Assembly (NCBI RefSeq): GCF_014174215.1
Contig: NZ_JABEQL010000015.1
Span: 1 to 64,000, forward strand
Origin: Gluconacetobacter tumulicola
GTDB taxonomy: Bacteria; Pseudomonadota; Alphaproteobacteria; Acetobacterales; Acetobacteraceae
Length of the DNA stretch: 64,000 nt
Reading direction: 5' to 3'
Shown here: positions 15,962 to 35,393 of the stretch, piece by piece
Layout of the letters: each line of letters begins with the position of its first letter
How positions within the stretch are numbered: position 1 is the first letter of the stretch
Made by a program: the position numbers and the translations under genes
The notes under the pieces: model-generated
Databases searched by the model: none
What the model saw: the letters and a program-made list of their open reading frames with translations, nothing else
What the model was told of the DNA's origin: nothing

Positions 15962-16029
15962 ATACGATCGTTGGTCGCTATTTTTTCTATCAACACTCTC
16001 TTTTGGTAATTATACGGGTCCGATCGTAT
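15962..16029. promoter_or_regulatory. inverted repeat upstream of the tandem-HTH regulator
   Basis: ATACGATCG at 15962-15970 is the exact complement of CGATCGTAT at 16021-16029, in an AT-rich 290-bp leader. Arms 50 bp apart, upstream of the first gene of the operon, could be autoregulatory sites. No consensus -10/-35 pair is clear. Confidence 0.3.
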
Positions 16030-16080
16030 TATATCCGCAGCGACACGTTGTTATTCATATTGTCATAAGGCTCCGTGGAA

Positions 16081-17337
16081 ATGGAACTTCCGGCCCTGAT
16101 CTATTTTACGAGCCTGATCAACGAAGGCTCCGCCGCCTCGGCTGCCCCGGTGCTTGGCGTCAGCGCATCCACGCTCAGCCACAGCGTGTCCGCCCTGGAG
16201 CAGGCCATGGCGACATCGCTGCTGTCACGCTCGTCACTGCGCCGGGGCAGCAGGGCCGTCACGACCGCGCAGGGCGAGAGCCTGTATCGTTCCGCCCTGC
16301 ACCTGCTGGGCTGGTGCCTGACCCTGATCGAGGACGATAATCGTTCCCACATGGCCCCGCCGGAACGCGACACCGCCGGCCCGCTGCCGACGCACCGCCT
16401 GCGCGCATTGCTGGGCTCGGGCCTGACGCTGCGCATGATCGGTTATTTCCTGTCCGTCTACGAAACCCGGCGGATCGCCGCCGCCGCGCAGCGTCTGTCG
16501 CTGACCCAACCCACGCTCTCCCGCCAGATCGGCCGGCTGGAGACGATTCTCGGCCGGACATTATTTATACGCAGCCCCCATGGCGTCATGCCGACGGCAG
16601 AGGCCGAGGCGCTGCGCCAGGGATGCCAGCAGGTGGACCAGACCCACCGGCAGATCATGCGCGACGAGAATTTCAGCTATTTCCGCGCATTCAGGACCCT
16701 GAAGCTCGCGTCGATGATGCCGACCAGCAGCGACAGTTCCCTGACGGTCCTGCTGGCCAATCTGGTCCGCCTGTGGCGCCACCGCCGCTACCAGCCGCCC
16801 CTGACGATCTCGACCATCGCCGCGCCGCAGATGGTGGAAGGGCTGCTGGACGGACGGTTCGATGCCGGCCTGTCCGACCTGATCGACATCCCGCTGGACC
16901 TCGACAGCGCGGAGCTGGAAAAATCCGCGATCTTCCTCGTCTTCGGCCGGGCGCACAGCCCACCGCCGGGCCAGACGCCCCGGATCGCCCTGGCCTCGTA
17001 TCTGCTGGCAGTGCCCGCCCTGGGCACGGGGCTGCGCCGGGTCACCGACCGTTACCTGGATCAGGAAGGCATTACACCGGGCAGCATCTTCGAGACCCAG
17101 TCGCTTTCGCTGATGCTGCGCCTGGTCGAGGACGGCACCTGCTGCGCCATCCTGCCCGCCGGCTCGTTCCGCTCCCACGCGGTCCACGCCATCCCCCTGC
17201 CCGATCGCTACCGGATGACGACGCGCCTGATCTGGAAGAAGGAGCACCCCAACCTCGCCATCATCGGCCGGTTGCAGGCCGGCCTGGCGGAAATCCAGGC
17301 CGAAGCCGGTTCCGCGGGGCGGAAATCCGTCGCATGA
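16081..17337 (+). CDS. LysR-like regulator with two tandem HTH domains
   Basis: A 418-residue protein, about 110 residues longer than a normal LysR. Residues 1-75 form one LysR-like HTH (ALIYFTSLINEGSAASAAPVLG, then SASTLSHSVSALEQAMATS). A linker follows, and a second, more canonical HTH starts near residue 115 (YFLSVYETRRIAAAAQRLS, then TQPTLSRQIGRLETILGR). A LysR substrate-binding domain occupies the rest. The ATG at 16081 has ATAAGG ten bases upstream; a GTG at 16075 is too close. Its stop overlaps the next ATG (ATGA), making the regulator the first gene of the ergothioneine-type operon. It is probably the substrate-responsive regulator of that operon, by inference. Confidence 0.82.
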   Translation: MELPALIYFTSLINEGSAASAAPVLGVSASTLSHSVSALEQAMATSLLSRSSLRRGSRAVTTAQGESLYRSALHLLGWCLTLIEDDNRSHMAPPERDTAGPLPTHRLRALLGSGLTLRMIGYFLSVYETRRIAAAAQRLSLTQPTLSRQIGRLETILGRTLFIRSPHGVMPTAEAEALRQGCQQVDQTHRQIMRDENFSYFRAFRTLKLASMMPTSSDSSLTVLLANLVRLWRHRRYQPPLTISTIAAPQMVEGLLDGRFDAGLSDLIDIPLDLDSAELEKSAIFLVFGRAHSPPPGQTPRIALASYLLAVPALGTGLRRVTDRYLDQEGITPGSIFETQSLSLMLRLVEDGTCCAILPAGSFRSHAVHAIPLPDRYRMTTRLIWKKEHPNLAIIGRLQAGLAEIQAEAGSAGRKSVA

Positions 17338-18686
17338 GCACCATCGCCTCCATCCTCTCCCCCGCCCTGCGCCGCCGGCGCCAGATCACGGTCCTGCTCC
17401 TGATGGCGGCCGGATGCGTCAGCTATATCGATCGCGCCGCCCTGTCGGTCAGCAATACGGCCGTGATGGCCGACATGCACATGTCCTACACCCAGATGGG
17501 CCTGCTGCTGTCGGTCTTCGCCTGGGCCTATCTCGCCGGGCAGATCCCGACGGGCCTGCTGGCCGACCGGTTCGACAGCCGCTTCCTGCTGGGGGCGGGC
17601 CTGGTCCTCTGGTCGTGCGCGCAGATGGGCTTCGGTCTGATGCACGGCATCGCCGGCCTGTTCGTGGCGCGTATCGGGCTGGGACTGGGCGAGACCCCCT
17701 TGTTCCTCTCCGGCACCCGCGCGCTGGTCCGCTGGTACCAGCCGCGCGAACGCGGGCGCCCCCTCGGCCTCTTCAACGGGTCCGCGGCCCTCGGGCCGGC
17801 CCTGGCCCCGCCGCTGCTGCTCGCGATCATGGCGCTCTGGGGCTGGCGGGGCATGTCGGTCGCGATCGGCGCCGCCAGCCTGGTGCTGGCCTTCGTGTGG
17901 ATCCGCTTCTATCGCGACCCCGCCGACCTGACTCTGAGCGCCGCGATGCGCAAGGCCCTGCCCCGCCCCGACGCCCCGGTGCCGGCGAGCATCGTGCAGT
18001 CGCTGCGCGCCGATCTCGGCTATCTGCTGCGCCAGCGCTCGAGCTGGGTCCTGACGGCCGGCTATGCCGGGGTGATCTACCTGACCTGGCTCTACGCCAC
18101 ATGGATGCCCGCATGGCTCCAGACCTCCCGCCACCTGACGATCGGGCAGGCCGGGATGCTGTCCGCGCTGCCGCAGTTCTGCGGTTTCGCGGGCAGCGTG
18201 CTGGGTGGTGTGGTCGTCGACCGCCTGGCCGCCCGGGGCGTGGGGCTGCTGAATGCCTGCCGTGCCCCCCTGGTGCTGGCCATGCTGGTGGCCGCCGTCG
18301 CGACCACGCTGACCACGCTGCACACGCCATTGGCCGTCATGGTCGCCTTCATGGCCATCGCCCTGTTCGCGGGCGGCCTGGCCATCAGTTGCGGCTGGAT
18401 GCTCGGCACCGTGATCGCGGCCGAACACCGGGTCGCGACCCTGCAGGCCATCCAGAATACCGGCGGCTCGCTCGGCGGCGCGCTGGCCCCGGCGATAACC
18501 GGGCTGCTGGCCGACAGGTTTGGCAGCTTCACCCCTTCCCTGCTCACCGCCAGCGCCATCGGATTGGGCGCCGTCGCGATCTACCAGATCGGCCTGCGCC
18601 CGGAAGACGTCGCCGCGCACGCCTCCCTGCCGAACGGCCAGCCTCCATCCCGCCTCCCAGGCGCCACAGGATGCAACAAGGAATGA
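17334..18686 (+). CDS. MFS transporter, anion:cation symporter-type
   Basis: A 450-residue twelve-TM protein. TM1 contains the ACS-family hallmark YIDRAALSVS, and the TM2-3 loop GLLADRFDSRFLLG is the MFS signature. ACS members import carboxylates, hexuronates and vitamins by proton symport. Overlap with the regulator and the four-base gap to the TonB receptor place it in the ergothioneine-type operon. Possible cargo is ergothioneine, thiourocanate or a downstream acid. A second importer of another family follows at 21078. Confidence 0.85.
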   Translation: MSTIASILSPALRRRRQITVLLLMAAGCVSYIDRAALSVSNTAVMADMHMSYTQMGLLLSVFAWAYLAGQIPTGLLADRFDSRFLLGAGLVLWSCAQMGFGLMHGIAGLFVARIGLGLGETPLFLSGTRALVRWYQPRERGRPLGLFNGSAALGPALAPPLLLAIMALWGWRGMSVAIGAASLVLAFVWIRFYRDPADLTLSAAMRKALPRPDAPVPASIVQSLRADLGYLLRQRSSWVLTAGYAGVIYLTWLYATWMPAWLQTSRHLTIGQAGMLSALPQFCGFAGSVLGGVVVDRLAARGVGLLNACRAPLVLAMLVAAVATTLTTLHTPLAVMVAFMAIALFAGGLAISCGWMLGTVIAAEHRVATLQAIQNTGGSLGGALAPAITGLLADRFGSFTPSLLTASAIGLGAVAIYQIGLRPEDVAAHASLPNGQPPSRLPGATGCNKE

Positions 18687-18690
18687 CCCG

Positions 18691-21066
18691 ATGACATCAC
18701 GACGGATTCTCGCGCTCTCCACCATGCTCGGCGGCCTCGCGATCGCGCCCCACCTCCACGCCGCCTCCCCCACGCCGGCCCTGGCACAGGCGGCCTCGCG
18801 CCCGAACGCCCCGGCCACCACCCATCGCGCCGCCGGCACGACCGGCGCAGGCAAGGCGGCGGCAGCCGGCACCCCGGCCCCCGCCAACGAGGCCATCTCG
18901 GTCTTCGGCCATGGCTCGACCCGGCAGATGACCAGCGTAACGCGCACCATGATGCAGCAGAGCGTGCCCGGCACCTCGCCGCTGAAAGTCCTCAGCCAAC
19001 TTCCGGGCGTGCTCTACCAGTCCGCCGATCCGTTCGGCGCCTATGAATATTCCAGCCAGCTGTTCATGCGCGGCTTCAACCAGTCGCAGCTCGGCTTCAC
19101 ACTCGACGATATTCCCCTGGGCGACCAGCAGTTCAACAATTACAACGGCCTGTCCGTTACACGCTCGATCATCTCCGACGATGTCGGCGGCGTCGATGTC
19201 TCGCAGGGCGCCGGCGCGATCGACGTGGCCTCGACCAGCAATCTCGGCGGCGCGATCCAGATCCGTTCGCTCGATCCGTCCCATGTGCGCGGCGGCACCA
19301 TCGCCCAGACCTTCGGCAGCAATTCGACGATGCGGACCTATGCGCGCTTCGAAAGCGGCGATCTCAATCCAACCGGCACCCGCTTCTACGTCGCCTATGC
19401 CCGGCTGAACGGCAATCTATGGAAGGGCGGCGGCTACGACCATTCGGACCAGGTGAACGCCAAGCTGGTCCAGCCGCTGGCGCGCGGCTCGTCCCTGAAA
19501 CTGTTCTTCGACTGGAGTTCGATCCAGCAGTTCGACTATCAGGACATGACCAAGAACTGGCTGAATACGGTCGGCCCCAACCTGGCGAACTACTACCCCA
19601 ACTATACGGCCGCGTACAACGCAGCACGCGGGACCTACCCGGCGGAATTGCAGAAAACGAACGACCCGTTCGATGCCGCCTATTACGCCGGCACCGCCAA
19701 CCGCACCGACTATCTCGGCGGCCTCACGCTCGACGAAAATCTCAGCGAGACACTCAACTGGAAGACGACGTTATACGGCCACGCCAATAACGGCTACAGC
19801 ACCTGGACGACGCCCTACATACCCTCGCCCAACGGCGCGCCGCTCTCCCAGCGTATCCAGACGCCCAACGTCGCACGCGGCGGCTTCCAGAGCGCGGTCA
19901 CGTGGAAAATCGCACACCACGCCGTCAATGCCGGCGTCTGGTACGAATACGGAAATTTCAACGAAGGCCGCTATTTCTCCGAAGCCCCGCTGCTGGGCCA
20001 GGGCACGCTCGGCAACCCCACCACCGGCTTCCCGGCCGACAAGGTATTCGCAACCGCCTGGCAGGAAGCGTTCTCGACCCGGACCTTCGTGTTTCACCTG
20101 CAGGATACCTACAAGATCACGGACAATCTGACGGTCAATGCCGGGTTCAAGTCCATGATCGTCAATTCCGGCAATTCGGTGCCGACGCAGGACGGCACCA
20201 TCAACGGCACCCGGGTCGCCCAGGGGCATCTGGAAGCCTCGAACGCCTTCCTGCCGCAGGTCTCGGCCAACTGGCGCTTCCTGCCGCATAACGAACTGTT
20301 CTTCGACGTGTCGCACAATATGCGGTCCTTCCCGCTCGACGGGTACGGCACCAACGTGTCGGCCACGCCGTGGACCGCGTCACAGGCCTCGTTCCAGGCC
20401 ACCCGCAACACGCTGAAGCCCGAAACCGACTGGGTCTATGAAGGCGGCTACCGCTACACCTCGCCCCTGATCAGCGCGCTGGCCTCGCTGTATCGCGTCA
20501 ATTTCTCCAACCGCCTGCAATTGATCACCAGCCAGGCCGGCATCAATCCGGTCACCGCGGTGCAGAATGTCGGCGGGGTCACGACCAACGGCGCCGAGGC
20601 AAGCGTGACACTGCGCCCGGTGCGCGGGCTTTCGATCTACAATTCGTTCTCCTACGCCCATTCGACCTACGACCAGAACGTCATGACCGCGACGGGGCCG
20701 CAGCCGACGCGCGGCAAACTGGTGCCGAACTATCCGCAGTTCATGTACAAGGGTAACATCTCATACGCCATCGGCAATTTTGACGCCCATGTCGACGGAA
20801 CCTACCTCTCCCGCCGCGAGCTGACCTACACCAACGATCTGCGCGTGCCGGGTTATTTCCTGATGAATTTCGGCATGCGCTATCATTTCGGACAGGTGGG
20901 GCCGTTCAAGGGCCTGACGGCCAGCTTCAACGTCTACAACCTCACCAACAAGACCTACATCGCCACCACGAACGAGCTGGGAAACAATTTCGTCAATACG
21001 GACTTCAATTATTTCCTGATGGGCGCCCCTCGCCAGTTCTTCGGCACCGTCAGCGCGGATTTCTGA
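18691..21066 (+). CDS. TonB-dependent outer-membrane receptor
   Basis: A 791-residue receptor. A Sec signal peptide at about 1-24 (IAPHLHAAS cleavage region) is followed by an Ala/Pro-rich linker. A plug domain spans roughly residues 70-190 (LKVLSQLPGVLYQSADP, FMRGFNQSQLGFTLDDIPLG), and a 22-strand barrel ends in the aromatic-terminated FFGTVSADF. No TonB-box consensus is obvious. It lies between two MFS genes and the catabolic enzymes, so its likely role is energised uptake of the operon substrate or a metal-bound form of it. AAGGAA precedes the start. Confidence 0.86.
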   Translation: MTSRRILALSTMLGGLAIAPHLHAASPTPALAQAASRPNAPATTHRAAGTTGAGKAAAAGTPAPANEAISVFGHGSTRQMTSVTRTMMQQSVPGTSPLKVLSQLPGVLYQSADPFGAYEYSSQLFMRGFNQSQLGFTLDDIPLGDQQFNNYNGLSVTRSIISDDVGGVDVSQGAGAIDVASTSNLGGAIQIRSLDPSHVRGGTIAQTFGSNSTMRTYARFESGDLNPTGTRFYVAYARLNGNLWKGGGYDHSDQVNAKLVQPLARGSSLKLFFDWSSIQQFDYQDMTKNWLNTVGPNLANYYPNYTAAYNAARGTYPAELQKTNDPFDAAYYAGTANRTDYLGGLTLDENLSETLNWKTTLYGHANNGYSTWTTPYIPSPNGAPLSQRIQTPNVARGGFQSAVTWKIAHHAVNAGVWYEYGNFNEGRYFSEAPLLGQGTLGNPTTGFPADKVFATAWQEAFSTRTFVFHLQDTYKITDNLTVNAGFKSMIVNSGNSVPTQDGTINGTRVAQGHLEASNAFLPQVSANWRFLPHNELFFDVSHNMRSFPLDGYGTNVSATPWTASQASFQATRNTLKPETDWVYEGGYRYTSPLISALASLYRVNFSNRLQLITSQAGINPVTAVQNVGGVTTNGAEASVTLRPVRGLSIYNSFSYAHSTYDQNVMTATGPQPTRGKLVPNYPQFMYKGNISYAIGNFDAHVDGTYLSRRELTYTNDLRVPGYFLMNFGMRYHFGQVGPFKGLTASFNVYNLTNKTYIATTNELGNNFVNTDFNYFLMGAPRQFFGTVSADF

Positions 21067-21077
21067 TCGAAACCGTC

Positions 21078-22442
21078 ATGACGCAACAGCCACAGGGACG
21101 GAACGGAAAAGCGATGATCGCCGCTGCATGCATCGGCAATCTTCTGGAGTGGTACGATTTTTCGGTCTACGCCCTGTTCGCGCCCTATATCGCCCATGCG
21201 CTACTGCCCCCGGCCGACCGCCTGTCGCAACTGGCGCAGAGCCTGCTGGTCTTTGCGCTCGGGGCAGTCGCCCGCCCCCTCGGCGCGCTGCTTCTGGGCC
21301 AGCTTGCCGACCGAAGGGGGCGCGGCCCGGCACTGATGCTGACCTGCCTGCTGATGGGGGCAGGCACGGCACTGATCCTGTTCGACCCGCCCTATGCCAC
21401 GGCGGGGCGCGCCTCCATCATCATCCTCTGTCTTGCCCGGTTATTGCAGGGCATTTCGGCGGGCGGCGAAATCGGCGGCGCCGCCTCCTTCCTGGTCGAA
21501 GGCGCGGACAATGGCCGCCCCGGCTTCGCCGGCTCGTTCCTGCAGGCCACCATGGGCCTGTCCAACATGCTCGGCGCCGCCGTCGCCGCCAGCCTGACCG
21601 CGCTACTGAGCGATGCGCAGATGGCCCAGTGGGGCTGGCGGGCGCCTTTCGCCATCGGGCTGCTGATCATCCCCTTCGGCATCGTCCTGCGTCTCGGCAA
21701 CGCGGCGCCGAAGCGCCCCGCCACCGACCATGGCCCCATCCTGCGCGACCTGGCCCGCCACCATGGCGGCCGCTTCGTCGCGGCACTCGGCCTCTCCCTG
21801 CTCTGGGGTGCCGCGCCCTATGCGCTGGTCATCTACCTGCCGCTTTACGCCCAGCGATTCAGCGGCGTCACCCCCCATGGCAGCTATGTCGCCGTGCTGG
21901 CCGGCAATCTCGCCCTCGTCGCCGGCTCGCTGACGGCGGGGGCGCTGGCCGACCGGATCGGCGTCCGGCGCCTGCTTGTGGCGGCGACGCTGATGCTCAT
22001 CGCCCTCCCCGGCCCGATCCTGGGCCTCCTGAAATACGATCACGGCACGGCGGCGATGATCGCGGTCGCGGCCAGCCTGTGCGGCCTGGTGGCGCTGTTC
22101 GTCGGCGCCGCCCCGCTCGGCATCGCCAGCCTGTTCCCGGCCTCGGTCCGCGCGACGGGCATCGCCCTGTCCTACAATGCCTCCGTTTCGCTGTTCGGCG
22201 GCTTCGCTCCGGCGCTGCTCGCCAGCCTCGGGCTGGCCTGGCACGGCATGCCCAGCCCGGCCCTTTATGTCGCGCTCGCCGGGCTTCCGGCCCTGGCGGC
22301 GCTGCTGTCACCGCCCTTCGCCCCCGCCCGCGCGGCCCCGATTGCAGAAAATTCTATAGGCCTTGCACAAAAAAGCATAACCGCGCCGATGCCCTGGAAT
22401 GGGAGACTGGCTTCGGCAACCAGGGACGAAACGCTGTCGTGA
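21078..22442 (+). CDS. MFS transporter, metabolite:H+ symporter type
   Basis: A 454-residue twelve-TM protein. TM1 carries the metabolite:H+ symporter hallmark GNLLEWYDFSVYALFAPYIA, with Glu-Trp-Tyr-Asp. QLADRRGRGPAL is the TM2-3 loop, and LARLLQGISAGGEIGGAASF is typical of proline/betaine and dicarboxylate symporters such as ProP, ShiA and KgtP. Betaine carriers occur in this branch, which would fit ergothioneine, a trimethylammonium betaine; this is inference. The stop overlaps the GTG start of the lyase gene (GTGA). Confidence 0.84.
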   Translation: MTQQPQGRNGKAMIAAACIGNLLEWYDFSVYALFAPYIAHALLPPADRLSQLAQSLLVFALGAVARPLGALLLGQLADRRGRGPALMLTCLLMGAGTALILFDPPYATAGRASIIILCLARLLQGISAGGEIGGAASFLVEGADNGRPGFAGSFLQATMGLSNMLGAAVAASLTALLSDAQMAQWGWRAPFAIGLLIIPFGIVLRLGNAAPKRPATDHGPILRDLARHHGGRFVAALGLSLLWGAAPYALVIYLPLYAQRFSGVTPHGSYVAVLAGNLALVAGSLTAGALADRIGVRRLLVAATLMLIALPGPILGLLKYDHGTAAMIAVAASLCGLVALFVGAAPLGIASLFPASVRATGIALSYNASVSLFGGFAPALLASLGLAWHGMPSPALYVALAGLPALAALLSPPFAPARAAPIAENSIGLAQKSITAPMPWNGRLASATRDETLS

Positions 22443-23974
22443 CCCCCATCTCCCTTTCCGGCGAAACGCTGCCGCTGACCCGGCTCACCGCCATCGCCGA
22501 TGGCGCGCCGGTCACATTGGGACCAGGCGGCATCGCCCGCCTGCGCGCGGGCGAACGGGCACTGCACGAGGCCCTGGCCCGGGGCGACGGCATCTACGGC
22601 ACCACCAGCATGGTGGGCGCCTTCAAGGATAATGGCGTCACGGATGACGACCGGCCGAAATACGCCCTGCGCCTCCTGCGCTCCCACCTGCTCGGCACCG
22701 GGTCCTACCTGCCGCGACGGGTGGTCCGGGCCGCGATGGCGATCCGCCTCAACACGCTGCTGACCGGTCACGCCGGGGCCAGCCTCTATCTGGCCACGGC
22801 CCTGGCGGACCTGCTGAATGCCGGCATCACCCCCGCCGTGCCCGAATACGGCTCGATCGGCTGCGCGGATGTCGGCCTCATGAGCCATATCGGCGCGACC
22901 CTGCTGGGCGAGGGCCTGGCCTTCGGTCCCGAGGACGGCCCGGCGCTGCCCTCCGCAACCCTGCTGGCACGGTTCGGGCTCAAGCCCATGGTGCCCGGCC
23001 CCAAGGATGTGATGTCGGTCCTGTCCAGCAACGCGCTGGGGGTCGCCGGGGTGGCGCTGGCCGCGGCCGACCTGCGGGGCCGCCTGCCGCTGCTGCTGCA
23101 CGTCTTCGTCCTGGCCGCCGCGGGTTTCGGCGCCTTCGGCATCCCGTGGGAAACCGCCCGCCTGGACGGGCTGCGGGACGAAGCCCGCATCGCCCGCTAC
23201 CTGCAAGGGCTAACCAGCCCCGGTGACTGGACACCCCGCCGCAATCTTCAGGACCCGCTGAGCTTCCGCTGCATGCCGCAGATCGCGGGCGCCCTGGTCA
23301 CGGCGCTCGATCGCGTCGAGGCCACGCTGGCCCACAACATCGCCCATGCCGACGACAACCCGATCCTGTTCGACGGACGGGCCATGACCTCCGGCGCCTC
23401 CCTGCCGCTCGCCCTGGCGCTGGACGCACAGGCCCTGGTGATCGCGCTGTGCCATTACGCCCGCAGCACGCTCAGCCGCATCCTCGCCTCCTGCCGCGAG
23501 GACCTGTCCGGCCTGCCGCGCAACCTCACGCTCGACCCCGGCCGTCAGGTCGCCTTCGGTGCCGCGACCAAGCTGGCCGCCGACCTCACGACCGCGATCC
23601 TGCGCGAATCCACCCCGGCCTCGCTCTACCAGATCCCCGTCGCCAACGGGTTCGAGGACGAAGCCAGCTACCTGCCTTCGGTCGCCCGCGCGCTGGGCCT
23701 GCAAGCCAATCTGCTGTCCCCTCTGATCGCGCTGGAAGCCCTCGCCGCCCGGCAGGCCATCCGCCTGTCGGACGCAAGGCCGACCGGCAGCCCCGGCGCA
23801 TTGCTGGCCGAACTCGAACGGCATGTGCCGCTTCTGGACGATAGCGGCGCCGTGTCCGACGCCGTGCATCGGACGGAAGATATCCTGGTCCGCTTCGCCG
23901 CCCGCCTTGCCGACCCGCTCCCGGCGGATCTCGCCTTTCCGCCGCCCCCGTTTCAGGAGAATGCCCATGCATGA
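22439..23974 (+). CDS. MIO-less histidine-ammonia-lyase homologue, candidate ergothionase
   Basis: A 511-residue aromatic amino-acid lyase fold. It starts at a GTG overlapping the previous stop. Conserved features include Tyr53 in IYGTTSMVG, QDPLSFRCMPQIAGAL, ADDNPILFDG and a late FEDEASYLPS. At residues 138-144, where HAL/PAL enzymes read G-S-x-G-A-S-G, this protein reads GSIGCAD. Ala142-Ser143-Gly144 is thus Cys-Ala-Asp and the MIO electrophile cannot form. Ergothionase is a known HAL relative that expels trimethylamine from ergothioneine without MIO. With a thiohydantoin desulfurase-type gene and a HutU homologue downstream, the best call is ergothioneine trimethylamine-lyase giving thiourocanate. 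Alternatives are S-methyl-ergothioneine or another betaine. Confidence 0.8.
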   Translation: MTPISLSGETLPLTRLTAIADGAPVTLGPGGIARLRAGERALHEALARGDGIYGTTSMVGAFKDNGVTDDDRPKYALRLLRSHLLGTGSYLPRRVVRAAMAIRLNTLLTGHAGASLYLATALADLLNAGITPAVPEYGSIGCADVGLMSHIGATLLGEGLAFGPEDGPALPSATLLARFGLKPMVPGPKDVMSVLSSNALGVAGVALAAADLRGRLPLLLHVFVLAAAGFGAFGIPWETARLDGLRDEARIARYLQGLTSPGDWTPRRNLQDPLSFRCMPQIAGALVTALDRVEATLAHNIAHADDNPILFDGRAMTSGASLPLALALDAQALVIALCHYARSTLSRILASCREDLSGLPRNLTLDPGRQVAFGAATKLAADLTTAILRESTPASLYQIPVANGFEDEASYLPSVARALGLQANLLSPLIALEALAARQAIRLSDARPTGSPGALLAELERHVPLLDDSGAVSDAVHRTEDILVRFAARLADPLPADLAFPPPPFQENAHA

Positions 23975-25331
23975 CCTGCTGTTCAAAGGCCATGTCGTCA
24001 CCGCGCATGCGGTGCTCGAAAATGGCTGGGTGGCCGTCGATGCCGGCCGCATCAGCCGCGTCGGCCAGGGCCTTCCCCCCACCGCCCGTCATGTCGAGGA
24101 TCACGGCGACGCGCTGATCCTGCCCGGCGCCATCGACGCACAGGTCCATTCCCGCTCGCAGAAAGGGCAGGAAGATTTCGTGTGGAGCACGCGCGCCGCC
24201 GCCGCCGGCGGCGTCACGACGATTGCCGACATGCCCTATGATGACGGGTTCCTCGTCTGCACGGCCGACAATCTGCGCCAGAAGGCACGGGAAGCCGGCG
24301 AGCAGGCCCGCGTCGATTTCGCGCTGTGGGGCACCATCGCGCCCGATGACGGCCCGCAACACATCCCCGAAATGGCACAGGCCGGTGCCTGCGGCTTCAA
24401 ATTCTCGACCTTCGGCACCGATCCCGTCCGCTTCCCCCGCATCCCGCCGGACCTGCTGGCCGCCTGTTTCGAATCCGTGGCACAGACCGGGCTGATCGCC
24501 GGCGTCCATAACGAAGATGACGAGATGGTCCGCGCGCGGATCGCGGCGGTCACCCGGTCGGGCATCACCGACTGGCGCGCCCACGGCCTGTCCCGCCCGG
24601 CGCTGGCCGAAACGCTGGCCATGGCCCAGATCTACGAAACGGCAGCCGCCACCGGCTGTTCGGGTCACGTCGTCCATTGCTCGGTCGCACGCGGCTATGC
24701 GCTGTGCGAGGCCTATCGCCGCCAGGGGGTCGATACGACGGTCGAAGCCTGCATCCACTATCTGGTGCTGGACGAGGAGCATGATGTCGCCCGGCTGGGC
24801 GGCCGCGCCAAGATCAATCCCCCCATCCGCCCCCGCGCCGAGGTCGAAGGGATCTGGGCTCACCTGGCCGCCGGCAATGTCACGATCGTCTCGACCGACC
24901 ATGTCTCCTGGTCGCTGGCCCGCAAGTCGGACCCCGACATGCTGAAGAACGCCTCCGGCGTGCCGGGGCTGGATGTCCTCTATCCCCTCCTGCTGACCGA
25001 ACTGTCGCGGCGCAACCTGTCCCCGACCCACGCCAGCCGTCTCCTGTCGGAGAACCCGGCCCGGCTGTTCCGCCTCACCGCCGGCAAGGGCGGGCTGGCC
25101 CCGGGCCGGGACGCCGACATCACCATCGCCCGGCGCGAGACCTGGCACTACGACCCTGCCGCCAGCGACAATGTCCTGACGGACTGGAGCCCCTATGCGG
25201 GCCGCGCACTGGACTGGCGCATCGCCGGAACATGGCTGCGCGGCCAGCAGGTCTTCGACGGGCAGATCGTCCTCGCCACACCGGGCACCGGCCGCTTCGT
25301 CACGCCCGAGCAGCCCTCCGGCTTGCGATGA
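23967..25331 (+). CDS. dihydropyrimidinase/dihydroorotase-family cyclic amidohydrolase, candidate hydantoin-5-propionate hydrolase
   Basis: A 454-residue metal-dependent amidohydrolase. Metal ligands are readable: Asp57-Ala-Gln59-Val-His61, the carbamylation-type Lys145 in GFKFSTFG, His181 in GVHNED, His237 in HVVHCS and Asp311 in STDHVSW. The first His of the usual D-x-H-x-H is Gln here, a variant seen in some dihydroorotases. It ring-opens a cyclic ureide. In this operon the expected reaction is hydantoin-5-propionate to N-carbamoylglutamate. It overlaps the lyase gene by eight bases, and the next gene starts within its stop codon. The substrate is inferred from context. Confidence 0.82.
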   Translation: MHDLLFKGHVVTAHAVLENGWVAVDAGRISRVGQGLPPTARHVEDHGDALILPGAIDAQVHSRSQKGQEDFVWSTRAAAAGGVTTIADMPYDDGFLVCTADNLRQKAREAGEQARVDFALWGTIAPDDGPQHIPEMAQAGACGFKFSTFGTDPVRFPRIPPDLLAACFESVAQTGLIAGVHNEDDEMVRARIAAVTRSGITDWRAHGLSRPALAETLAMAQIYETAAATGCSGHVVHCSVARGYALCEAYRRQGVDTTVEACIHYLVLDEEHDVARLGGRAKINPPIRPRAEVEGIWAHLAAGNVTIVSTDHVSWSLARKSDPDMLKNASGVPGLDVLYPLLLTELSRRNLSPTHASRLLSENPARLFRLTAGKGGLAPGRDADITIARRETWHYDPAASDNVLTDWSPYAGRALDWRIAGTWLRGQQVFDGQIVLATPGTGRFVTPEQPSGLR

Positions 25332-26581
25332 GCATCGCCGCCCACGTCCGGCCCGACCGGCTCCAGGCCGATATCGACGCCCTGGCCGCCATCACCGATC
25401 CGGACCGCCCCCACACGCGCCGCTCCTTCTCGCCCCGCTTTCTCGAAGGCCGGGCATGGCTCACGGCGCGCTTCCAGCAGGCCGGCCTGACCACCCGCAT
25501 CGACGAGTCCGGAAACCTGATCGGCCGCCGCGCCGGCACCACGCCCGGCCTCGGCACGCTCATGAGCGGCTCGCATTCCGACACGGTGCCCGATGGCGGC
25601 CGTTTCGACGGCATACTGGGCGTCCTGGCGGCGCTGGAGGCCGCGCGGGCCTTCGCCGATGCCGGGATCGCCCTGCGCCACGATCTCGAAATCGTCGATT
25701 TCCTGGCCGAGGAACCCAGCGATTTCGGCCTGTCCTGCATCGGCAGCCGTGGCATGGCCGGCGCCTTGTCGGCCGAGCATCACACCCTGCGCGCACCGCG
25801 GGACGAAAGCCTGGCCGACGCCCTGGCCCGCATGGGCGGCGATCCCGGCCTGCTGGACACACCCCGCCGCACCGATATCCGGGCTTTCTTCGAACTGCAT
25901 ATCGAACAGGGTATCGTCCTGGAGCAGGCACAGACCCAGATCGGCGTGGTCGACGCCATCGCAGGCGTCACCCGGCTGGAAATCATCTTCTCCGGCCGCG
26001 CCGACCACGCCGGCACCACGCCCATGGAACTGCGGCAGGACGCCGCCGTGCCCGCCGCCGCGATCATCGGCTTCGTCCACCAACAGGCCAGCACGCTGGC
26101 CCGTTCCGGCGCCGGCCATGTCACAGCCACCTGCGGCGTGCTCGATCTCTCCCCCGGCGCCTCCAACGTCATCCCGCGCTCCGCCCGGCTGATCGTCGAT
26201 ATCCGCGTCTCCGAACGCCCGGTCGCCGAAGAACTGGTCGCAGCGATCCGCGCCGCCTGCACCGACGCCGCCCGGGCCAGCCGCACCACCCTCGCCCGCT
26301 TCGCGATCCAGTCCGACACGCACCCCACGCCATGCGACCCGGCACTGGCAGCACTGTTCGAGGCGGCCGCTCACGCGCAGGGCTTCACCACCCGCCACAT
26401 GGTCTCCGGCGCCGGGCACGACGCCGCCTTCGTCGCGCGGCTGGCGCCGATGGCCATGCTCTTCGTCCCCTGCCGCGACGGCCGCAGCCACGACCCGGAA
26501 GAATGGTGCGCGCCCGAAGACGCCACACGCGGAACGATGGCCCTGGCCGAAGCCATGGCCATGCGCGACCGTACGGACTGA
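25328..26581 (+). CDS. Zn-dependent N-carbamoyl amino-acid hydrolase (HyuC/AmaB family)
   Basis: A 417-residue M20-type hydantoinase/carbamoylase family protein. The first metal site, GSHSDTV with His83, is followed by GGRFDGILGVLAALEAA, then DFLAEEPSDFG (bridging Glu) and FELHIEQG. SGAGHDAAF and DGRSHDPEEW lie near the C-terminus. A lid/dimerisation domain lies between about residues 215 and 325. These enzymes remove the carbamoyl group as CO2 and ammonia. Here the fitting reaction is N-carbamoyl-L-glutamate to L-glutamate, the last step of ergothioneine breakdown. It overlaps the amidohydrolase stop (ATGA). A paralogue lies in the pyrimidine cluster at 50449. Confidence 0.84.
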   Translation: MSIAAHVRPDRLQADIDALAAITDPDRPHTRRSFSPRFLEGRAWLTARFQQAGLTTRIDESGNLIGRRAGTTPGLGTLMSGSHSDTVPDGGRFDGILGVLAALEAARAFADAGIALRHDLEIVDFLAEEPSDFGLSCIGSRGMAGALSAEHHTLRAPRDESLADALARMGGDPGLLDTPRRTDIRAFFELHIEQGIVLEQAQTQIGVVDAIAGVTRLEIIFSGRADHAGTTPMELRQDAAVPAAAIIGFVHQQASTLARSGAGHVTATCGVLDLSPGASNVIPRSARLIVDIRVSERPVAEELVAAIRAACTDAARASRTTLARFAIQSDTHPTPCDPALAALFEAAAHAQGFTTRHMVSGAGHDAAFVARLAPMAMLFVPCRDGRSHDPEEWCAPEDATRGTMALAEAMAMRDRTD

Positions 26582-26608
26582 ACCAGGAACACACAGGAAA
26601 GAACCAAG

Positions 26609-27715
26609 ATGGGCCGTATACTGGTTGAAAAGGATGTCGAATCCGCCATCGCGGGCGGTTCCATCTTCGCCTGCGGCGGCGGCGGCTGGGTCGAACATGG
26701 CCGCATGCTGGGTACGGCCGCGGTCAATGCGGGCCAGCCCGAACTGGTCGGCGCGGACGAGATCGCCGATGACGCCATCATCGCCACCGCCGCCGCCATC
26801 GGCGCCCCCGCCAGCACCACCGAATGGCAGATGCTGGGCGTCGATTACGTCAACGCCGTCCGCCTGGTGGAGAAGGAGCTGGGCCGCCCCATCTACGGGC
26901 TGATGATCGGCCAGAACGGCAAGTCCAGCACGCTGAACGCCTGGCTGCCGGGCGCGATCCTGGGCACCAAGGTCATCGACGCGGTCGGCGACATGCGCGC
27001 ACACCCGACAGGCGACATGGGCTCGATCGGCATGGCGGGCTCGCCCGAACCCATGATCCAGGCCGTGGTGGGCGGCAACCGCGCGAACGGCGCCTATCTC
27101 GAAGTCATCGCCAAGGGCGCGACCGCCCGCGTCTCGCCCATCCTGCGCACGGCCTCCGACATGTCCGGCGGCTTCATCGCCTCGTGCCGCAACCCGCTGC
27201 CGGCCGCCTACGTCAAACGCCATGCCGCATGGGGCGGCATCTCGCGCGCCCTGGCATTGGGCGAGGCGGTGCTGGCCGCCCGGCCCAAGGGCGGCGGCGC
27301 GGTCATCGACACCATCACCCGCGCGCTGGACGGCGCCATCGTGGCCCAGGGCAAGGTTTCCCGGAAATCGGTGGTCTACACGCCGGAAGCCTTCGATATC
27401 GGCACCATCACCGTGGGCACCGGCGAGCAGTCCGTCACGCTGCACGTCATGAACGAATACATGGCCCTGGACGATGCCGGCGGCAGGCGGATCGCCTCCT
27501 TCCCCGACATCATCACCACGCTGTCGCCCGACGGGCATCCCCTCAGCGTCGGCGAAATCGTCGAAGGCATGGAAATCCTTGTCCTGCACGTGGACAAGAC
27601 CAAATTCCCGCTCTCGTCCAGCGTGCTCGACCCCGCGGTCTATCCCCCCGTCGAACGCGCGCTCGGGATCGACCTGACCAGTTATGCCCTCAGCTTCATC
27701 GGCGACAGGGGCTAG
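26609..27715 (+). CDS. DUF917 protein, candidate thiohydantoin desulfurase
   Basis: A 368-residue protein of the DUF917 family (PF06032), whose characterised member acts on S-methyl-thiohydantoin propionate. The N-terminal Gly-rich FACGGGGWVEHGRML, TAAAIGAPAS and GLMIGQNGKSSTL are family-like, and a C-terminal beta domain follows. GGAAAG precedes the ATG. The role inferred from context is removal of sulfur from 3-(5-oxo-2-thioxoimidazolidin-4-yl)propanoate to give hydantoin-5-propionate. Family members are also linked to hydantoin/oxoprolinase genes, so the family call is firmer than the substrate. It lies 27 bases after the carbamoylase gene and three bases before the hydratase gene. Confidence 0.8.
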   Translation: MGRILVEKDVESAIAGGSIFACGGGGWVEHGRMLGTAAVNAGQPELVGADEIADDAIIATAAAIGAPASTTEWQMLGVDYVNAVRLVEKELGRPIYGLMIGQNGKSSTLNAWLPGAILGTKVIDAVGDMRAHPTGDMGSIGMAGSPEPMIQAVVGGNRANGAYLEVIAKGATARVSPILRTASDMSGGFIASCRNPLPAAYVKRHAAWGGISRALALGEAVLAARPKGGGAVIDTITRALDGAIVAQGKVSRKSVVYTPEAFDIGTITVGTGEQSVTLHVMNEYMALDDAGGRRIASFPDIITTLSPDGHPLSVGEIVEGMEILVLHVDKTKFPLSSSVLDPAVYPPVERALGIDLTSYALSFIGDRG

Positions 27716-27718
27716 ACC

Positions 27719-29377
27719 ATGACGAAGCAACAGTTCGGCGTCACCTCGGGCGGCAACCTGCGATGTCGCGGCTGGCGGCAGGAAGGGCTGCTGCGCCTGC
27801 TGGAAAACGTGCTGTCGGTCGGCGAGGACCCGGCCAACCTGGTCGTCTACGCAGCTTTGGGCAAAGCCGCCCGCGACTGGCCGTCGCACGACGCCATCGT
27901 CCGCGCCCTGACCACCATGGGCGATGACGAAACCCTGATCGTCCAGTCCGGCAAGCCGATCGGCGTGGTGAAAACGCACGAGCGCGCGCCCATCGTCGTC
28001 ATGGCCAACTGCAACATCGTCGGCCAGTGGGCCCGCGCCGAGGAATTCTACCGGCTGGAAAAGCAGGGGCTGATCTGCTGGGGCGGGCTGACGGCCGGCG
28101 ACTGGCAATATATCGGCTCGCAGGGCGTCATCCAGGGCACGTACGAGATCTTTCGCCGCATCGCCGAACGGCATTTCGCCGGCGACCTGACCGGGCGGCT
28201 GATCCTCACCTCGGGCCTCGGCGGCATGGGCGGCGCCCAGCCCCTGGCCGGGCACCTGGCCGGCGCGATCATCCTGTGCGTCGAGGTCGATGACGCCCGC
28301 ATCGGCCGCCGCATCGAAAGCGGCTACCTGCAACATCGCGCAACCTCGCTGGACGATGCCCTGCGCCTGGTCGAAGAGGCCCGCGCGGCGAGCGATGCCC
28401 GTTCCATCGGCCTGTGCGGCAATGCGGCGGATATCTTCCCCGAACTGCTGGCGCGCGGCATCATCCCGGACATCGTTACCGACCAGACCTCGGCCCACGA
28501 TCTGGTCTACGGCTACGTGCCGGCCTCCCTCTCCCTCGACCAGACGAAGGCCCTGCGCCAGAGCGACCCGGAATCCCTGTCCCGTCTGGCCCTGCAATCG
28601 ATCGCGCGCCACGTGCAGGCGATGCTCGATTTCCGCGCCGCCGGCGCGGTCGTCTTCGACAATGGCAACCTGATCCGCACCCAGGCCAAAAAAGCCGGGA
28701 TCGACCACGCCTTCGATATCCCGATCTTCACCGAAGCCTATCTCCGCCCGCTCTTCGCACGCGGCATCGGCCCGTTCCGCTGGATCGCGCTCTCCAATGA
28801 CGAAGCGGATCTGCGGAAAATCGACGAATACCTGCTGGAGACATTCGCCGACAATCCATCGATCGTAAACTGGATCACCCTGGCCCGCCGCTTCATCCCC
28901 ATCGAGGGCATGCCCGCCCGCATCGCATGGCTGGGCCATGGCGACCGGACCAAAGTGGGGCTGGCCGTCAACCGCATGGTGCGCGAGGGCATCCTCTCCG
29001 GCCCGGTGGCCTTCACCCGCGACCATCTCGATGCCGGTGCGATGGCCCACCCCAACATCATGACCGAAAACCTCAAGGACGGCTCGGACGCCATCGCCGA
29101 CTGGCCGCTGCTGAACGCCATGCTCGCCTGCTCGTCACAGGCCGACCTGGTGGCCATCCATTCCGGCGGCGGCGGTTATGCCGGCTATATGACCAGCGCC
29201 GGTGTCACCACAATCGCCGACGGCTCGTCGGAAGCCGACGAACGCCTGCGCCTGACCCTGACCAACGACACCAGCCTGGGCGTCATGCGCTACGCCGACG
29301 CCGGCTATCAGGAAGCATTCGAAGAAATCAACCGCCAGCACATCCCCTATATCAACCTCGCCACGCCCCATCCCTGA
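27719..29377 (+). CDS. urocanate hydratase homologue, candidate thiourocanate hydratase
   Basis: A 552-residue NAD-containing HutU-family protein. Preserved parts include TSGLGGMGGAQPLA at about residues 165-178 (NAD site), CGNAADIFPELL, TDQTSAHDLVYGY and TLTNDTSLGVMRYADAGY. The urocanase signature ending in G-L-P-x-R-I-C-W reads GMPARIAW here: the hallmark Cys is Ala403. Urocanase hydrates the imidazole ring of urocanate using bound NAD; the substitution and the neighbours point to thiourocanate, giving the thiohydantoin propionate. No hutI, hutF or hutG lies nearby, arguing against ordinary histidine utilisation. It is the last gene of the operon; a palindromic repeat follows the stop immediately. 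Confidence 0.84.
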   Translation: MTKQQFGVTSGGNLRCRGWRQEGLLRLLENVLSVGEDPANLVVYAALGKAARDWPSHDAIVRALTTMGDDETLIVQSGKPIGVVKTHERAPIVVMANCNIVGQWARAEEFYRLEKQGLICWGGLTAGDWQYIGSQGVIQGTYEIFRRIAERHFAGDLTGRLILTSGLGGMGGAQPLAGHLAGAIILCVEVDDARIGRRIESGYLQHRATSLDDALRLVEEARAASDARSIGLCGNAADIFPELLARGIIPDIVTDQTSAHDLVYGYVPASLSLDQTKALRQSDPESLSRLALQSIARHVQAMLDFRAAGAVVFDNGNLIRTQAKKAGIDHAFDIPIFTEAYLRPLFARGIGPFRWIALSNDEADLRKIDEYLLETFADNPSIVNWITLARRFIPIEGMPARIAWLGHGDRTKVGLAVNRMVREGILSGPVAFTRDHLDAGAMAHPNIMTENLKDGSDAIADWPLLNAMLACSSQADLVAIHSGGGGYAGYMTSAGVTTIADGSSEADERLRLTLTNDTSLGVMRYADAGYQEAFEEINRQHIPYINLATPHP

Positions 29378-29378
29378 A

Positions 29379-29538
29379 AGCCTGACCGAAAATGCGCGCT
29401 GGCGGCGATCCGACGCGCGTTTCCTGCGCTCCAATGCTCACTTCCATCCAGACCGCTCCGCGTCGAGGCTCGAAAACACACGCCGGGCGCGGTCCTGCGG
29501 GCCGCTCTCGCTCACCAGCCCGCATTTTCGGTCAGGCT
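29379..29538 (-). repeat. palindromic 160-bp repeat, copy 2 (MITE-like)
   Basis: Perfect 16-bp inverted ends AGCCTGACCGAAAATG / complement at 29523-29538. The element starts one base after the TGA of the hydratase gene. Its interior is the most diverged of the four copies, and one of the two small internal hairpins is decayed. Same orientation as copy 1, opposite to copy 3, which follows 66 bp later. Confidence 0.82.
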
Positions 29539-29604
29539 CCATAGAGGAACGCTGAACCATCAGCTCGCGACAGGGCTTTTGCCGACGGCTCCAGCCGGGT
29601 GTCA

Positions 29605-29768
29605 GAGCCTGTTTGGAAATGCGTGCTGGTGAGCGAGAGCGGCCCGGAACGGGTCGCGCCCGTCGTGTGTTTCCGAGCCTCGGAGCGGAGCGGCCTTGAT
29701 GGCCGTGAGCACCGAAGCACAGGAAACGCGCGTCGGATCGCCGCCAGCGCGCATTTCCAAACAGGCTC
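29605..29768 (+). repeat. palindromic repeat, copy 3, with TCA target duplication
   Basis: A 164-bp element with perfect 19-bp inverted ends (GAGCCTGTTTGGAAATGCG). It is flanked by TCA at 29602-29604 and 29769-29771, a possible T-N-A target duplication as made by IS5/IS1031-type transposases. The right TCA is also the stop codon of the minus-strand Rieske gene. Internal hairpins include GGCCTTGATGGCC. No coding capacity. Confidence 0.85.
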
Positions 29769-30815
29769 TCAGATCCCCGGCAGGTCCTGATGCCCCTCAT
29801 CCCGCCGGGATATTTCTTCCTCGCCATGCGCCCGCAGCAGGGCCAGAAGCCGCTGGCGCATGATCAGCCCCGGACGATCCGACGCCATGTGCATCTCGAC
29901 CCGGCGGGAGACATCCAGGATCGCATCGCAATCGGTCGCCTCCAGAATGTCGCGATCCTCCTCGATGATCGCCCTGTCCCAGGCGATCAGCTTTTCCGTG
30001 CTGCACTCGGCCTCGGTATCGTTGCGGTAGAGCAGTTGGATGAGCTGGATCTTCCCGTCTTCCACCGGGGTCGCGCAATTGATGATGATGTGCCGAATCC
30101 CCGACGGATACAGCATGTCCATCCGGCGCGCGAAGGGCAGATACCAGTGATTATGCATCGTGCGCGTCGTCGTGGGGTTCGGATCGCCCGTAATCGCCAC
30201 CGCATGAGGCGGATTGACGACATCGACGACGGTCGTCGCCTGAAATCCGTAATCGGTTTCCTCGATCTTGTAGACGCGCGGCCGAGGTTGCGCCATATCG
30301 CCGAACGTGCCGCGATGGACGAAGGCGAAATGCGCGTTGTCGAATGAATTTTCCATCAGACGCAGCGGCGCCGTGTTCCACTGGTCGTCGAACTGGAAAA
30401 TGCGCCGGAATCCCGGGTCGCGATCCTCGGGAATATCGAACAGTTCGACCAGCGGCTCATCCAGCGCGACCCAGGCATAGCCATAGTGCGCCTGGCATCC
30501 ATACGCCCGCGCCCGAAAATCCGGCAGCGCCGCACCGGGCGCCTGCTGCGGAATCGCCACCACCGCGCCGGTCCCGTCATAGCGCCAGCCATGATAGCCG
30601 CAGACCAGCTCGCCTTTGTCGCACCACCCTTTGGACAGCTTTGCGGTGCGGTGGCAGCAGCGATCCTGCAAGGCCCTCGGCGCGCCTTCCGCGTCGAGGA
30701 ACAGCACGATATCCTCGCCCATCAGCCGAAAGGGTTTCGGACCGTCCGACAGATCCGCCAGCGGAACCGTCGCATACCAGAACCGGCGCAGGACTTTCTG
30801 TCGGGTCGTCAGCAT
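29769..30815 (-). CDS. Rieske non-heme iron oxygenase, alpha subunit
   Basis: A 348-residue oxygenase of the vanillate demethylase/PaO type. The Rieske [2Fe-2S] ligands are Cys53-x-His55 and Cys72-x2-His75 (CCHRTAKLS, CGYHGWRYD). The mononuclear iron site is in MENSFDNAHFAFVHRGTFG (Asp, His, His). It would hydroxylate or O/N-demethylate a small ring compound using electrons from a separate reductase. No ferredoxin or reductase gene is visible in the window, so partners must be encoded elsewhere. It is the last gene of the minus-strand operon, nine bases after the amidohydrolase gene. Its stop codon coincides with the flank of repeat copy 3. Substrate unknown. Confidence 0.85.
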   Translation of the reverse strand: MLTTRQKVLRRFWYATVPLADLSDGPKPFRLMGEDIVLFLDAEGAPRALQDRCCHRTAKLSKGWCDKGELVCGYHGWRYDGTGAVVAIPQQAPGAALPDFRARAYGCQAHYGYAWVALDEPLVELFDIPEDRDPGFRRIFQFDDQWNTAPLRLMENSFDNAHFAFVHRGTFGDMAQPRPRVYKIEETDYGFQATTVVDVVNPPHAVAITGDPNPTTTRTMHNHWYLPFARRMDMLYPSGIRHIIINCATPVEDGKIQLIQLLYRNDTEAECSTEKLIAWDRAIIEEDRDILEATDCDAILDVSRRVEMHMASDRPGLIMRQRLLALLRAHGEEEISRRDEGHQDLPGI

Positions 30816-30824
30816 CGCGCTCTC

Positions 30825-34976: not shown

Positions 34977-35389
34977 GCGCACAGCACCCGCCGATCCTCG
35001 TCATCCAGCACCACCGGCGTGCCACTGCGGATCAGCGCCCCGAACGCCTCGTCGGGCATCATCACCGTCAGCGTATAGAGCTTGCCCGCCCCCGTATTCT
35101 CCACCACATGCTCGCTGCCGGGCTTGACCAGCAGCGCATCGCCTTTCTTCAGCGTGGTCCGCTCGCCATCGCACCAGGCCACCCCCTCGCCGCTGAGGAC
35201 GAAGAACAGCTCGTCCGCCGCCTGATGGGTATTGGGCGGCGTCCTGCCACCGACGGCAAAGATCTCGATCACGGCAACCGACGCGCACTCCCCCGCCTGC
35301 CGGTCGGCCAGGATCGCGAAATAATTGCTGTCGGACGGCGAGATGCGAAAGGCTTCGATCTGGTCGATCGATCTCTTGAAGAACGGCAT
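34973..35389 (-). CDS. small cupin protein
   Basis: A 138-residue cupin. Motif 1, PPNTHQAADELFFVLSGEG, and motif 2, KKGDALLVKPGSEHVVENTG, carry the usual His/Glu ligands. No signal peptide. Cupins in heterocycle catabolic operons act as isomerases, dioxygenases or lyases, but this one cannot be assigned. It is coupled to the isochorismatase gene (ATGA) and starts four bases after the CocE-type gene ends. Confidence 0.78.
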   Translation of the reverse strand: MPFFKRSIDQIEAFRISPSDSNYFAILADRQAGECASVAVIEIFAVGGRTPPNTHQAADELFFVLSGEGVAWCDGERTTLKKGDALLVKPGSEHVVENTGAGKLYTLTVMMPDEAFGALIRSGTPVVLDDEDRRVLCA

Positions 35390-35393
35390 GGGG

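Follow-up and report, generated by a model that had tools for sequence, protein, structure and literature searches.

Nine adjacent genes in the DNA of Gluconacetobacter tumulicola analysed here (a stretch of 64,000 nucleotides, hereafter the window) very probably form one operon that imports external ergothioneine and breaks it down to glutamate, as a source of nitrogen and carbon. Judging from its genes, the operon is a transport variant of a known catabolic pathway.

Organisation of the operon and the proposed pathway

The nine ORFs lie on the + strand between positions 16075 and 29377 and contain no internal stops. The junctions between them measure, in order, -4, +4, +11, -4, -8, -4, +27 and +3 bp, in agreement with the sequence-only reading, which had described nine co-oriented genes with overlaps or gaps of 27 bp or less. 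The operon start, placed there at 16081, may instead be the GTG at 16075 that opens the regulator gene, a trivial difference. The named family of each protein was matched by Pfam, and these families, the intact and tight packing of the genes and the conservation of the block are observed directly. A possible sigma-70-like promoter precedes the operon (16003..16032, + strand); it is a weak and non-significant pattern match, with two matches in the region compared to 1.4 expected from shuffles. The promoter and terminator scans around the operon gave matches at chance level, and the Rfam scan of the window detected no family at the gathering score.

The chemistry of each step of ergothioneine catabolism is established. 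In the proposed pathway, a TonB-dependent receptor, a first MFS carrier (MFS1) and an MHS-family symporter would bring ergothioneine into the cell, and a lyase acting without the MIO cofactor would split it into thiourocanate and trimethylamine. Thiourocanate would be converted by the hydratase to thiohydantoin propionate, in which the DUF917 protein would swap sulfur for oxygen with the release of sulfide. ErtD would then open the hydantoin ring and ErtE would release glutamate, ammonia and CO2, while a LysR-type protein with two HTH domains may sense the substrate or an intermediate. We infer co-transcription in this scheme, as well as the substrate, the direction and energy coupling of transport, and the regulation.

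Enzymes of the ergothioneine route

The four downstream enzymes were compared with the curated NCBIfam equivalog models for ergothioneine catabolism, each of which has its own cut-off. All four passed: the hydantoin-5-propionate amidohydrolase ErtD (23967..25331, + strand; ORF scanned from 23961) with 754.8 bits on NF058538 (cut-off 600), the N-carbamoyl-L-glutamate amidohydrolase ErtE (25328..26581, +) with 552.3 bits on NF058540 (cut-off 520), the thiohydantoin desulfurase of the DUF917/S-Me-THD family (26609..27715, +) with 590.5 bits on NF058529 (cut-off 440) and the urocanase-like thiourocanate hydratase (27719..29377, +) with 988.4 bits on NF058530 (cut-off 930). The margins of ErtE and the hydratase appear modest. 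ErtE, the predicted carbamoylase, also exceeds the cut-off of a generic Zn-hydrolase model.

The fifth enzyme, a predicted ergothionase-type trimethylamine lyase (22439..23974, +), starts with a GTG codon that overlaps the stop of the preceding MHS gene. It matches Pfam Lyase_aromatic with 280 bits, and its best PDB match, both by sequence and by Foldseek, is the Treponema denticola ergothionase 6s7j, at 27–28% identity. The predicted model (pLDDT 83.6) gave a Foldseek TM-score of about 0.86 against both ergothionase and histidine ammonia-lyase (HAL); the modelled fold thus puts ergothionase first, yet it neither separates the lyase from HAL nor proves the substrate. No ergothionase model is among the eight NCBIfam matches of the lyase, all of which are below their cut-offs.

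The Ala-Ser-Gly triad that forms MIO is absent and replaced by Cys-Ala, so that the description of the protein as a MIO-less HAL homologue was correct. The corresponding loop reads GSIGCADVG in the window and SSIGEGDI in 6s7j, where Glu-Gly stands in place of Cys-Ala, whereas HAL 7tqr carries a modified residue. The two MIO-less enzymes share the HAL-type fold, and Y53, K63, K378 and E406 of the lyase align with Y53, K63, K383 and E411 of the 6s7j chain, presumably the residues responsible for catalysis in that ergothionase. Lysines 63 and 378 match lysines in 6s7j but not in HAL 7tqr. Among 62 lyase rows from desulfurase loci, the four residues are kept in 61, 61, 60 and 61 rows, respectively. 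The MIO-replacing loop contains GCAD in 46 of these rows and GEAD or GQAD in 14, a variation which suggests that the substrates of the lyases may differ between loci.

The earlier proposal that the enzymes cover the ergothioneine route is supported: four of the five pass curated models and the lyase is closest to the Treponema ergothionase. The substrate of the operon could, in principle, be an S-modified form, either S-methyl-ergothioneine or ergothioneine sulfonate. Ergothionase also accepts the sulfonate. Curated models of the S-methyl pathway exist, and both the hydratase and the desulfurase match them; the pathway for ergothioneine sulfonate has been reconstituted, according to a reference given in PMC13405746. 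We consider degradation of such compounds instead of ergothioneine quite improbable, as the same two proteins pass the ergothioneine models and miss the S-methyl cut-offs (753.3 bits against 880 for the hydratase and 275.9 against 450 for the desulfurase), a comparison that covers the S-methyl pathway. The comparison of the lyase, hydratase and DUF917 protein with characterised counterparts, through curated models and solved structures, likewise favours ergothioneine over S-methyl-ergothioneine. We give still less credence to a re-purposed histidine (hut) pathway, or to another histidine betaine (hercynine) or methylhistidine as the substrate. Such a reading could draw on the HAL fold, which fits the lyase about equally well, on the score of the lyase on HAL models (208 bits, below the cut-off of 524) and on the 692 bits with which the hydratase clears the cut-off of 375 set for hutU in general. 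However, the hydratase scores 988 bits on the thiourocanate model against those 692, the lyase has no MIO triad and reaches only 198.2 bits on the hutH model (cut-off 539), and histidine utilisation would need neither a thiohydantoin desulfurase nor a hydantoin hydrolase. Without the triad and with both lysines of the ergothionase structure, the lyase leaves the assignment to ergothioneine standing as far as its sequence is concerned.

The genome of the strain holds one PF00221 (HAL-family) gene and one PF01175 (urocanase-family) gene, both within the operon, and no match to PF10017 (EgtD family). PF10017 covers one ergothioneine biosynthetic route only; as a control, it matched 2 of 14 genomes, E. 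coli among them. The lack of a second HAL or urocanase gene and of PF10017 matches fits the use of external ergothioneine.

Uptake genes, regulator and their conservation

The operon begins with the LysR-type regulator (16075..17337, +), in which Pfam recognised two separate N-terminal HTH_1 stretches and LysR_substrate. The double HTH is present in 9 of 10 LysR homologues from ergothioneine loci, which were hand-picked, mostly as long ORFs beside the lyase, so that this count is not a rate. The regulator gene is followed by the galactonate-transporter-like MFS1 (17334..18686, +; Pfam MFS_1), a candidate inner-membrane importer whose best NCBIfam match is TIGR00893 (218 bits, below the cut-off of 395). 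The TonB-dependent outer-membrane receptor (18691..21066, +), a candidate ergothioneine receptor, has plug (PF07715) and beta-barrel (PF00593) domains over the gathering score. Its residues E67, I69, V71, F72 and G73, presumably the TonB box, are invariant in a seven-row alignment. The PDB sequence search with the receptor returned nothing at E 0.001, and its structure prediction from seven aligned rows (mean pLDDT 26.4) was too poor for a fold search. The ProP/TcuC-like MHS metabolite:H+ symporter (21078..22442, +) is a candidate betaine/ergothioneine carrier with 276 bits on TIGR00883, below the cut-off of 443.

The locus scan was based on the best 80 of 452 relatives, found with two peptide patterns. 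In all 13 acetic-acid-bacterium loci of this set the nine genes follow one another as in the window, on a single strand. Each of these loci ends within the LysR gene, which is complete in L034, L035, L105 and L106, longer stretches of four of those 13 genomes. The order was also found in two further genomes (G060 and G1043). Because it recurs in other acetic-acid-bacterium loci, the arrangement is more than chance. The LysR–MFS–TonB receptor–MHS block precedes the enzymes in 16 of 16 acetic-acid-bacterium loci, the window included, with aggeris, asukensis, sacchari and azotocaptans, which occur in two overlapping locus sets, counted once.

Among the same best 80 relatives, an MFS1 homologue is present in 13/13 acetic-acid-bacterium loci and in 0/67 of the other desulfurase loci, and the receptor homologue was likewise found in none of those 67. 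All five enzymes occur together in 44 of the 67, 14 of which are shorter than 15 kb, and a lyase match is absent from 19. MHS homologues (41–47%) occur in 20 of the 67 loci and OpuAC-type ABC transporter homologues in four, and their recurrence fits a betaine substrate. Alphaproteobacterial ergothioneine loci (for example L096/L127, L097, L131, L175 and L184) have the same enzymes in varying completeness, and the LysR gene adjoins the lyase in many. They differ from the window in that these five genomes carry OpuAC-type ABC transporter genes and show no match to MFS1 or the TonB receptor. Surveys at the level of family, class and phylum drew on partly overlapping samples of at most 400 genomes, that of G. 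tumulicola included. Searching plasmids with the desulfurase at E 1e-60 gave 11 records, and no acetic acid bacterium appears among their names.

The importers had been described as dedicated; their genes are present and their order is conserved. Relatives of the receptor are also present in the apparent absence of the enzymes, namely in G042 (81%), G048 (78%), G215 and G247 (74%) and G022 and G025 (69%), genomes with no desulfurase or thiourocanate hydratase over the cut-off. For this reason the importer role of the receptor and MFS1, and ergothioneine as the receptor's substrate, are put forward as candidate assignments, and the receptor may carry a different or broader compound. That the enzymes degrade ergothioneine while receptor and MFS1, joined secondarily, import something else is compatible with our reading of the enzymes, and we regard it as a serious prospect, if somewhat short of even. 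An MFS1 homologue (44–65%; matches >80 bits considered) lies within the same 20-kb stretch as the receptor relative in six of eight non-operon loci. Moreover, in the tree, where X was meant to replace the stop symbols of rows taken from tblastn, L188 and L189 fall inside a starred set of 15 rows, and the remaining 13 rows of that set come from operons. Ergothioneine is also small enough to pass porins. On the other hand, receptor and MFS1 keep their order in 16/16 acetic-acid-bacterium operons, even where receptor identity falls to about 70%, their pairing outside operons is weak, being adjacent and co-oriented in just two of the eight loci (L189 and L193), and receptor-only genomes could import ergothioneine as an antioxidant.

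We also propose, tentatively and with more doubt than belief, that the receptor and MFS1 constitute TonB-driven ergothioneine uptake, the first of its kind, serving nutrition in some acetic acid bacteria and antioxidant scavenging in relatives without the enzymes, and that these alphaproteobacterial loci share a LysR family with a double HTH as their sensor of ergothioneine.

Relation to known systems and significance

Beliaeva, Leisinger and Seebeck reportedly described the five-step bacterial catabolic pathway in 2021. All five enzyme classes are found in the window, four of them over the NCBIfam Ert cut-offs, and the lyase is divergent. The window differs further in that LysR, MFS, TonB receptor and MHS genes precede the enzymes in a tight block, a distinction drawn against the enzyme set of that pathway. 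Import of ergothioneine into bacteria is also the function of a specific ABC transporter (PMC9732360). That system is of the ABC type, unlike the TonB receptor, MFS and MHS candidates of the window. We assume this transporter to be EgtUV. The sequence-only reading had regarded the single-operon packaging as apparently new. Since the enzyme set corresponds to the published pathway, only the packaging with importers and regulator can be new; the enzymatic route is already known. In the open-access literature, as judged by titles and abstract openings, we recognised no report on an acetic-acid-bacterium ergothioneine operon, TonB ergothioneine uptake or the Ert names.

With the predicted operon, acetic acid bacteria join the groups in which ergothioneine is used. 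The receptor is a candidate, open to experiment, for taking up a sulfur antioxidant with the help of TonB, and the compact gene set could be tried as a means of sensing or quantifying ergothioneine. Moreover, HutH/HutU-type annotation in these genomes can signify the catabolism of ergothioneine and not of histidine.

Operon structure and enzyme assignment

Nine plus-strand genes occupy positions 16075-29377, with junctions of -8 to +27 bp and no internal stops, which bears out the tightly packed, co-oriented layout described in the sequence-only reading. The gene order is LysR-type regulator (16075-17337), MFS carrier (MFS1, 17334-18686), TonB-dependent receptor (18691-21066), MHS-type carrier (21078-22442), aromatic amino acid lyase homologue (22439-23974), amidohydrolase (23967-25331), M20 carbamoylase (25328-26581), DUF917 (now S-Me-THD) protein (26609-27715) and urocanase homologue (27719-29377).

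The curated models for ergothioneine catabolism were taken from NCBIfam release 20. The urocanase homologue scored 988.4 with the thiourocanate hydratase model (cut-off 930), 692.3 with the hutU model (cut-off 375) and 753.3, below the cut-off of 880, with the S-methyl form of the hydratase model. The DUF917 protein scored 590.5 with the thiohydantoin desulfurase model (cut-off 440) and 275.9, below the cut-off of 450, with the S-methyl desulfurase model. The amidohydrolase and the carbamoylase exceeded the cut-offs of the ErtD (754.8; cut-off 600) and ErtE (552.3; cut-off 520) models, respectively. Based on these scores, ergothioneine is chosen over S-methyl-ergothioneine, and the assignment of the operon to the already known ergothioneine pathway is well supported.

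The lyase passed no NCBIfam cut-off, and its eight matches were HAL, PAL, TAL and aminomutase models. By sequence, its best solved relative among 39 matched chains was the ergothionase of Treponema denticola, 6s7j (E 2.2e-51). Between the glycine and aspartate flanking the Ala-Ser-Gly (ASG) triad that gives the MIO cofactor in HAL-type lyases, the protein carries Cys-Ala, whereas 6s7j has Glu-Gly and HAL 7tqr a modified residue at this place. In the alignment, Tyr53, Lys63, Lys378 and Glu406 correspond to Tyr53, Lys63, Lys383 and Glu411 of 6s7j, which we take to be catalytic in ergothionase, while HAL 7tqr has Leu and Tyr at the places of Lys63 and Lys378. The predicted structure (pLDDT 83.6) also had 6s7j as its top Foldseek match, but with TM-scores similar to those for HAL, so the fold by itself does not decide between ergothionase and HAL. 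The ergothioneine route proposed earlier is supported at the sequence level: the hydratase and the DUF917 protein match the curated models on the ergothioneine side of the cut-offs, and the lyase is closest in sequence, among solved structures, to an ergothionase and lacks the MIO triad.

The four residues aligned with 6s7j were compared in 62 lyase rows, comprising the window and the best match from 61 of 80 named loci. They were retained in 61, 61, 60 and 61 rows, respectively, and a true ASG was present in one. The triad was replaced by GCAD in 46 rows and by GEAD or GQAD in 14, and these two classes are perhaps two ergothionase subtypes. PMC13405746 treats ergothionase and its absence of MIO and cites an ergothioneine sulfonate pathway, and PMC9732360 cites the five-step ergothioneine pathway.

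At E 0.001, the own genome contains one PF00221 and one PF01175 gene, both within the operon, and the searches with these families gave no further HutH- or HutU-family gene. PF10017, presumably the family covering EgtD, had no match in the own genome; a control search over 14 other genomes matched two, one of them E. coli. These searches therefore gave no indication that the genome encodes the EgtD route to ergothioneine, and on this reading external ergothioneine would be the natural substrate of the operon.

Distribution and genomic context

The thiourocanate hydratase exceeded its cut-off in 4 of 299 sampled family genomes, and the desulfurase in 6/14 genus, 5/385 class-sample and 6/398 phylum-sample genomes, the own genome included each time. 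A scan of named genomes with the desulfurase alignment, from which the best 80 of 452 relatives were taken, gave 13 acetic acid bacteria (Gluconacetobacter, Acetobacter, Gluconobacter and Komagataeibacter). All nine genes were matched in all 13 loci, in the same order and on one strand, with the LysR gene truncated by the locus edge. The sampled genomes G060 and G1043 likewise carry all nine, which together with the window gives 16 operon rows. A record titled Bacillus subtilis SK6B4 (L151) has an ergothioneine locus with the layout seen in L141, L145 and L173 of Pseudochrobactrum, and is probably a mislabelled or mixed assembly.

The downstream DNA (29400-38000) is common to the two closest relatives only, among 15 loci compared. 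The upstream gene at 15127, presumably YkgJ-like, is present in 11 of 14 genus genomes (E 1e-40), including some without a desulfurase over the cut-off. The operon is accessory, and past transfer between acetic acid bacteria is probable. An ORF read from translation as integrase-like (L032, 17273-18334) lies directly 3' of the operon in G060 and hints at a mobile origin.

Convergent with the operon, the minus strand at 29769-33400 carries a Rieske-type oxygenase and a transporter substrate-binding protein, both assigned by reading, and an amidohydrolase over the NF009059 cut-off that matched an 8-oxoguanine deaminase model below cut-off. The Rieske-type gene was found in 4 of 14 genus genomes (E 1e-60).

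Regulator and transport genes

The regulator has two HTH_1 domains; a duplicated N-terminal HTH is unusual among LysR proteins. Within a set of ten homologues hand-chosen from ergothioneine loci, nine had two HTH domains and one (L127) a single domain. The duplication was seen in LysR-type regulators adjoining ergothioneine lyases in the alphaproteobacterial loci L131, L147, L156, L159, L164, L165 and L179, and in several alphaproteobacterial loci the homologue adjoins the lyase on the opposite strand. This position and the recurrent double HTH suggest a shared candidate sensor family.

Among the 67 non-acetic loci of the best 80 of 452 relatives, the lyase was matched in 48 and all five enzymes in 44; MFS1 and the receptor were matched in none (tblastn, E 1e-6). 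Neither was matched in nine distant loci (L095-L103), where the enzymes occur in varying completeness. Within this sample, MFS1 and the receptor are confined to the acetic acid bacteria. The MHS carrier has homologues of 41-47% identity in 20 of the 67 loci, so its link with the pathway extends outside the acetic acid bacteria. In L096 and L097, apparent ABC transporter genes, judged to be of OpuAC type from translations and homology, lie between the lyase and the amidohydrolase, and homologues occur in 4 of the 67.

Receptor relatives with 69-81% identity were found in six of the 299 family genomes (G042, G048, G215, G247, G022 and G025). None of the six had a thiourocanate hydratase over the cut-off, and in the three genus members, where a desulfurase was sought (G042, G215 and G247), none passed its cut-off. 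Eight receptor-relative loci (L188-L195) were drawn from G042, G048, G215, G022, G025, G251, G071 and the 49% paralogue of the own genome. Their sole enzyme-like match above 80 bits was a HAL-type lyase in L193, where guanine deaminase and class C beta-lactamase genes also lie nearby. An MFS1 homologue is on the same stretch in six loci (L188-L193), adjoining the receptor relative and co-oriented in L189 and L193 and separated from it by 2.8 to 6 kb in L188, L190, L191 and L192; none was found in L194 and L195. In a tree of 24 receptors, the non-operon L188 and L189 fell inside a starred set of 15 rows, the remaining 13 being operon rows. Given this placement and the relatives found where the enzymes were not, the receptor can occur apart from the enzymes, which leaves two readings: either the candidate receptor imports ergothioneine even without catabolism, or it imports another compound and was recruited.

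Searches of open-access papers brought up no report that we recognised as describing an ergothioneine operon in acetic acid bacteria or TonB uptake of ergothioneine. The transport and regulator block of the acetic acid bacteria makes the operon a variant worth testing, and it would gain interest if the TonB receptor were found to carry ergothioneine.
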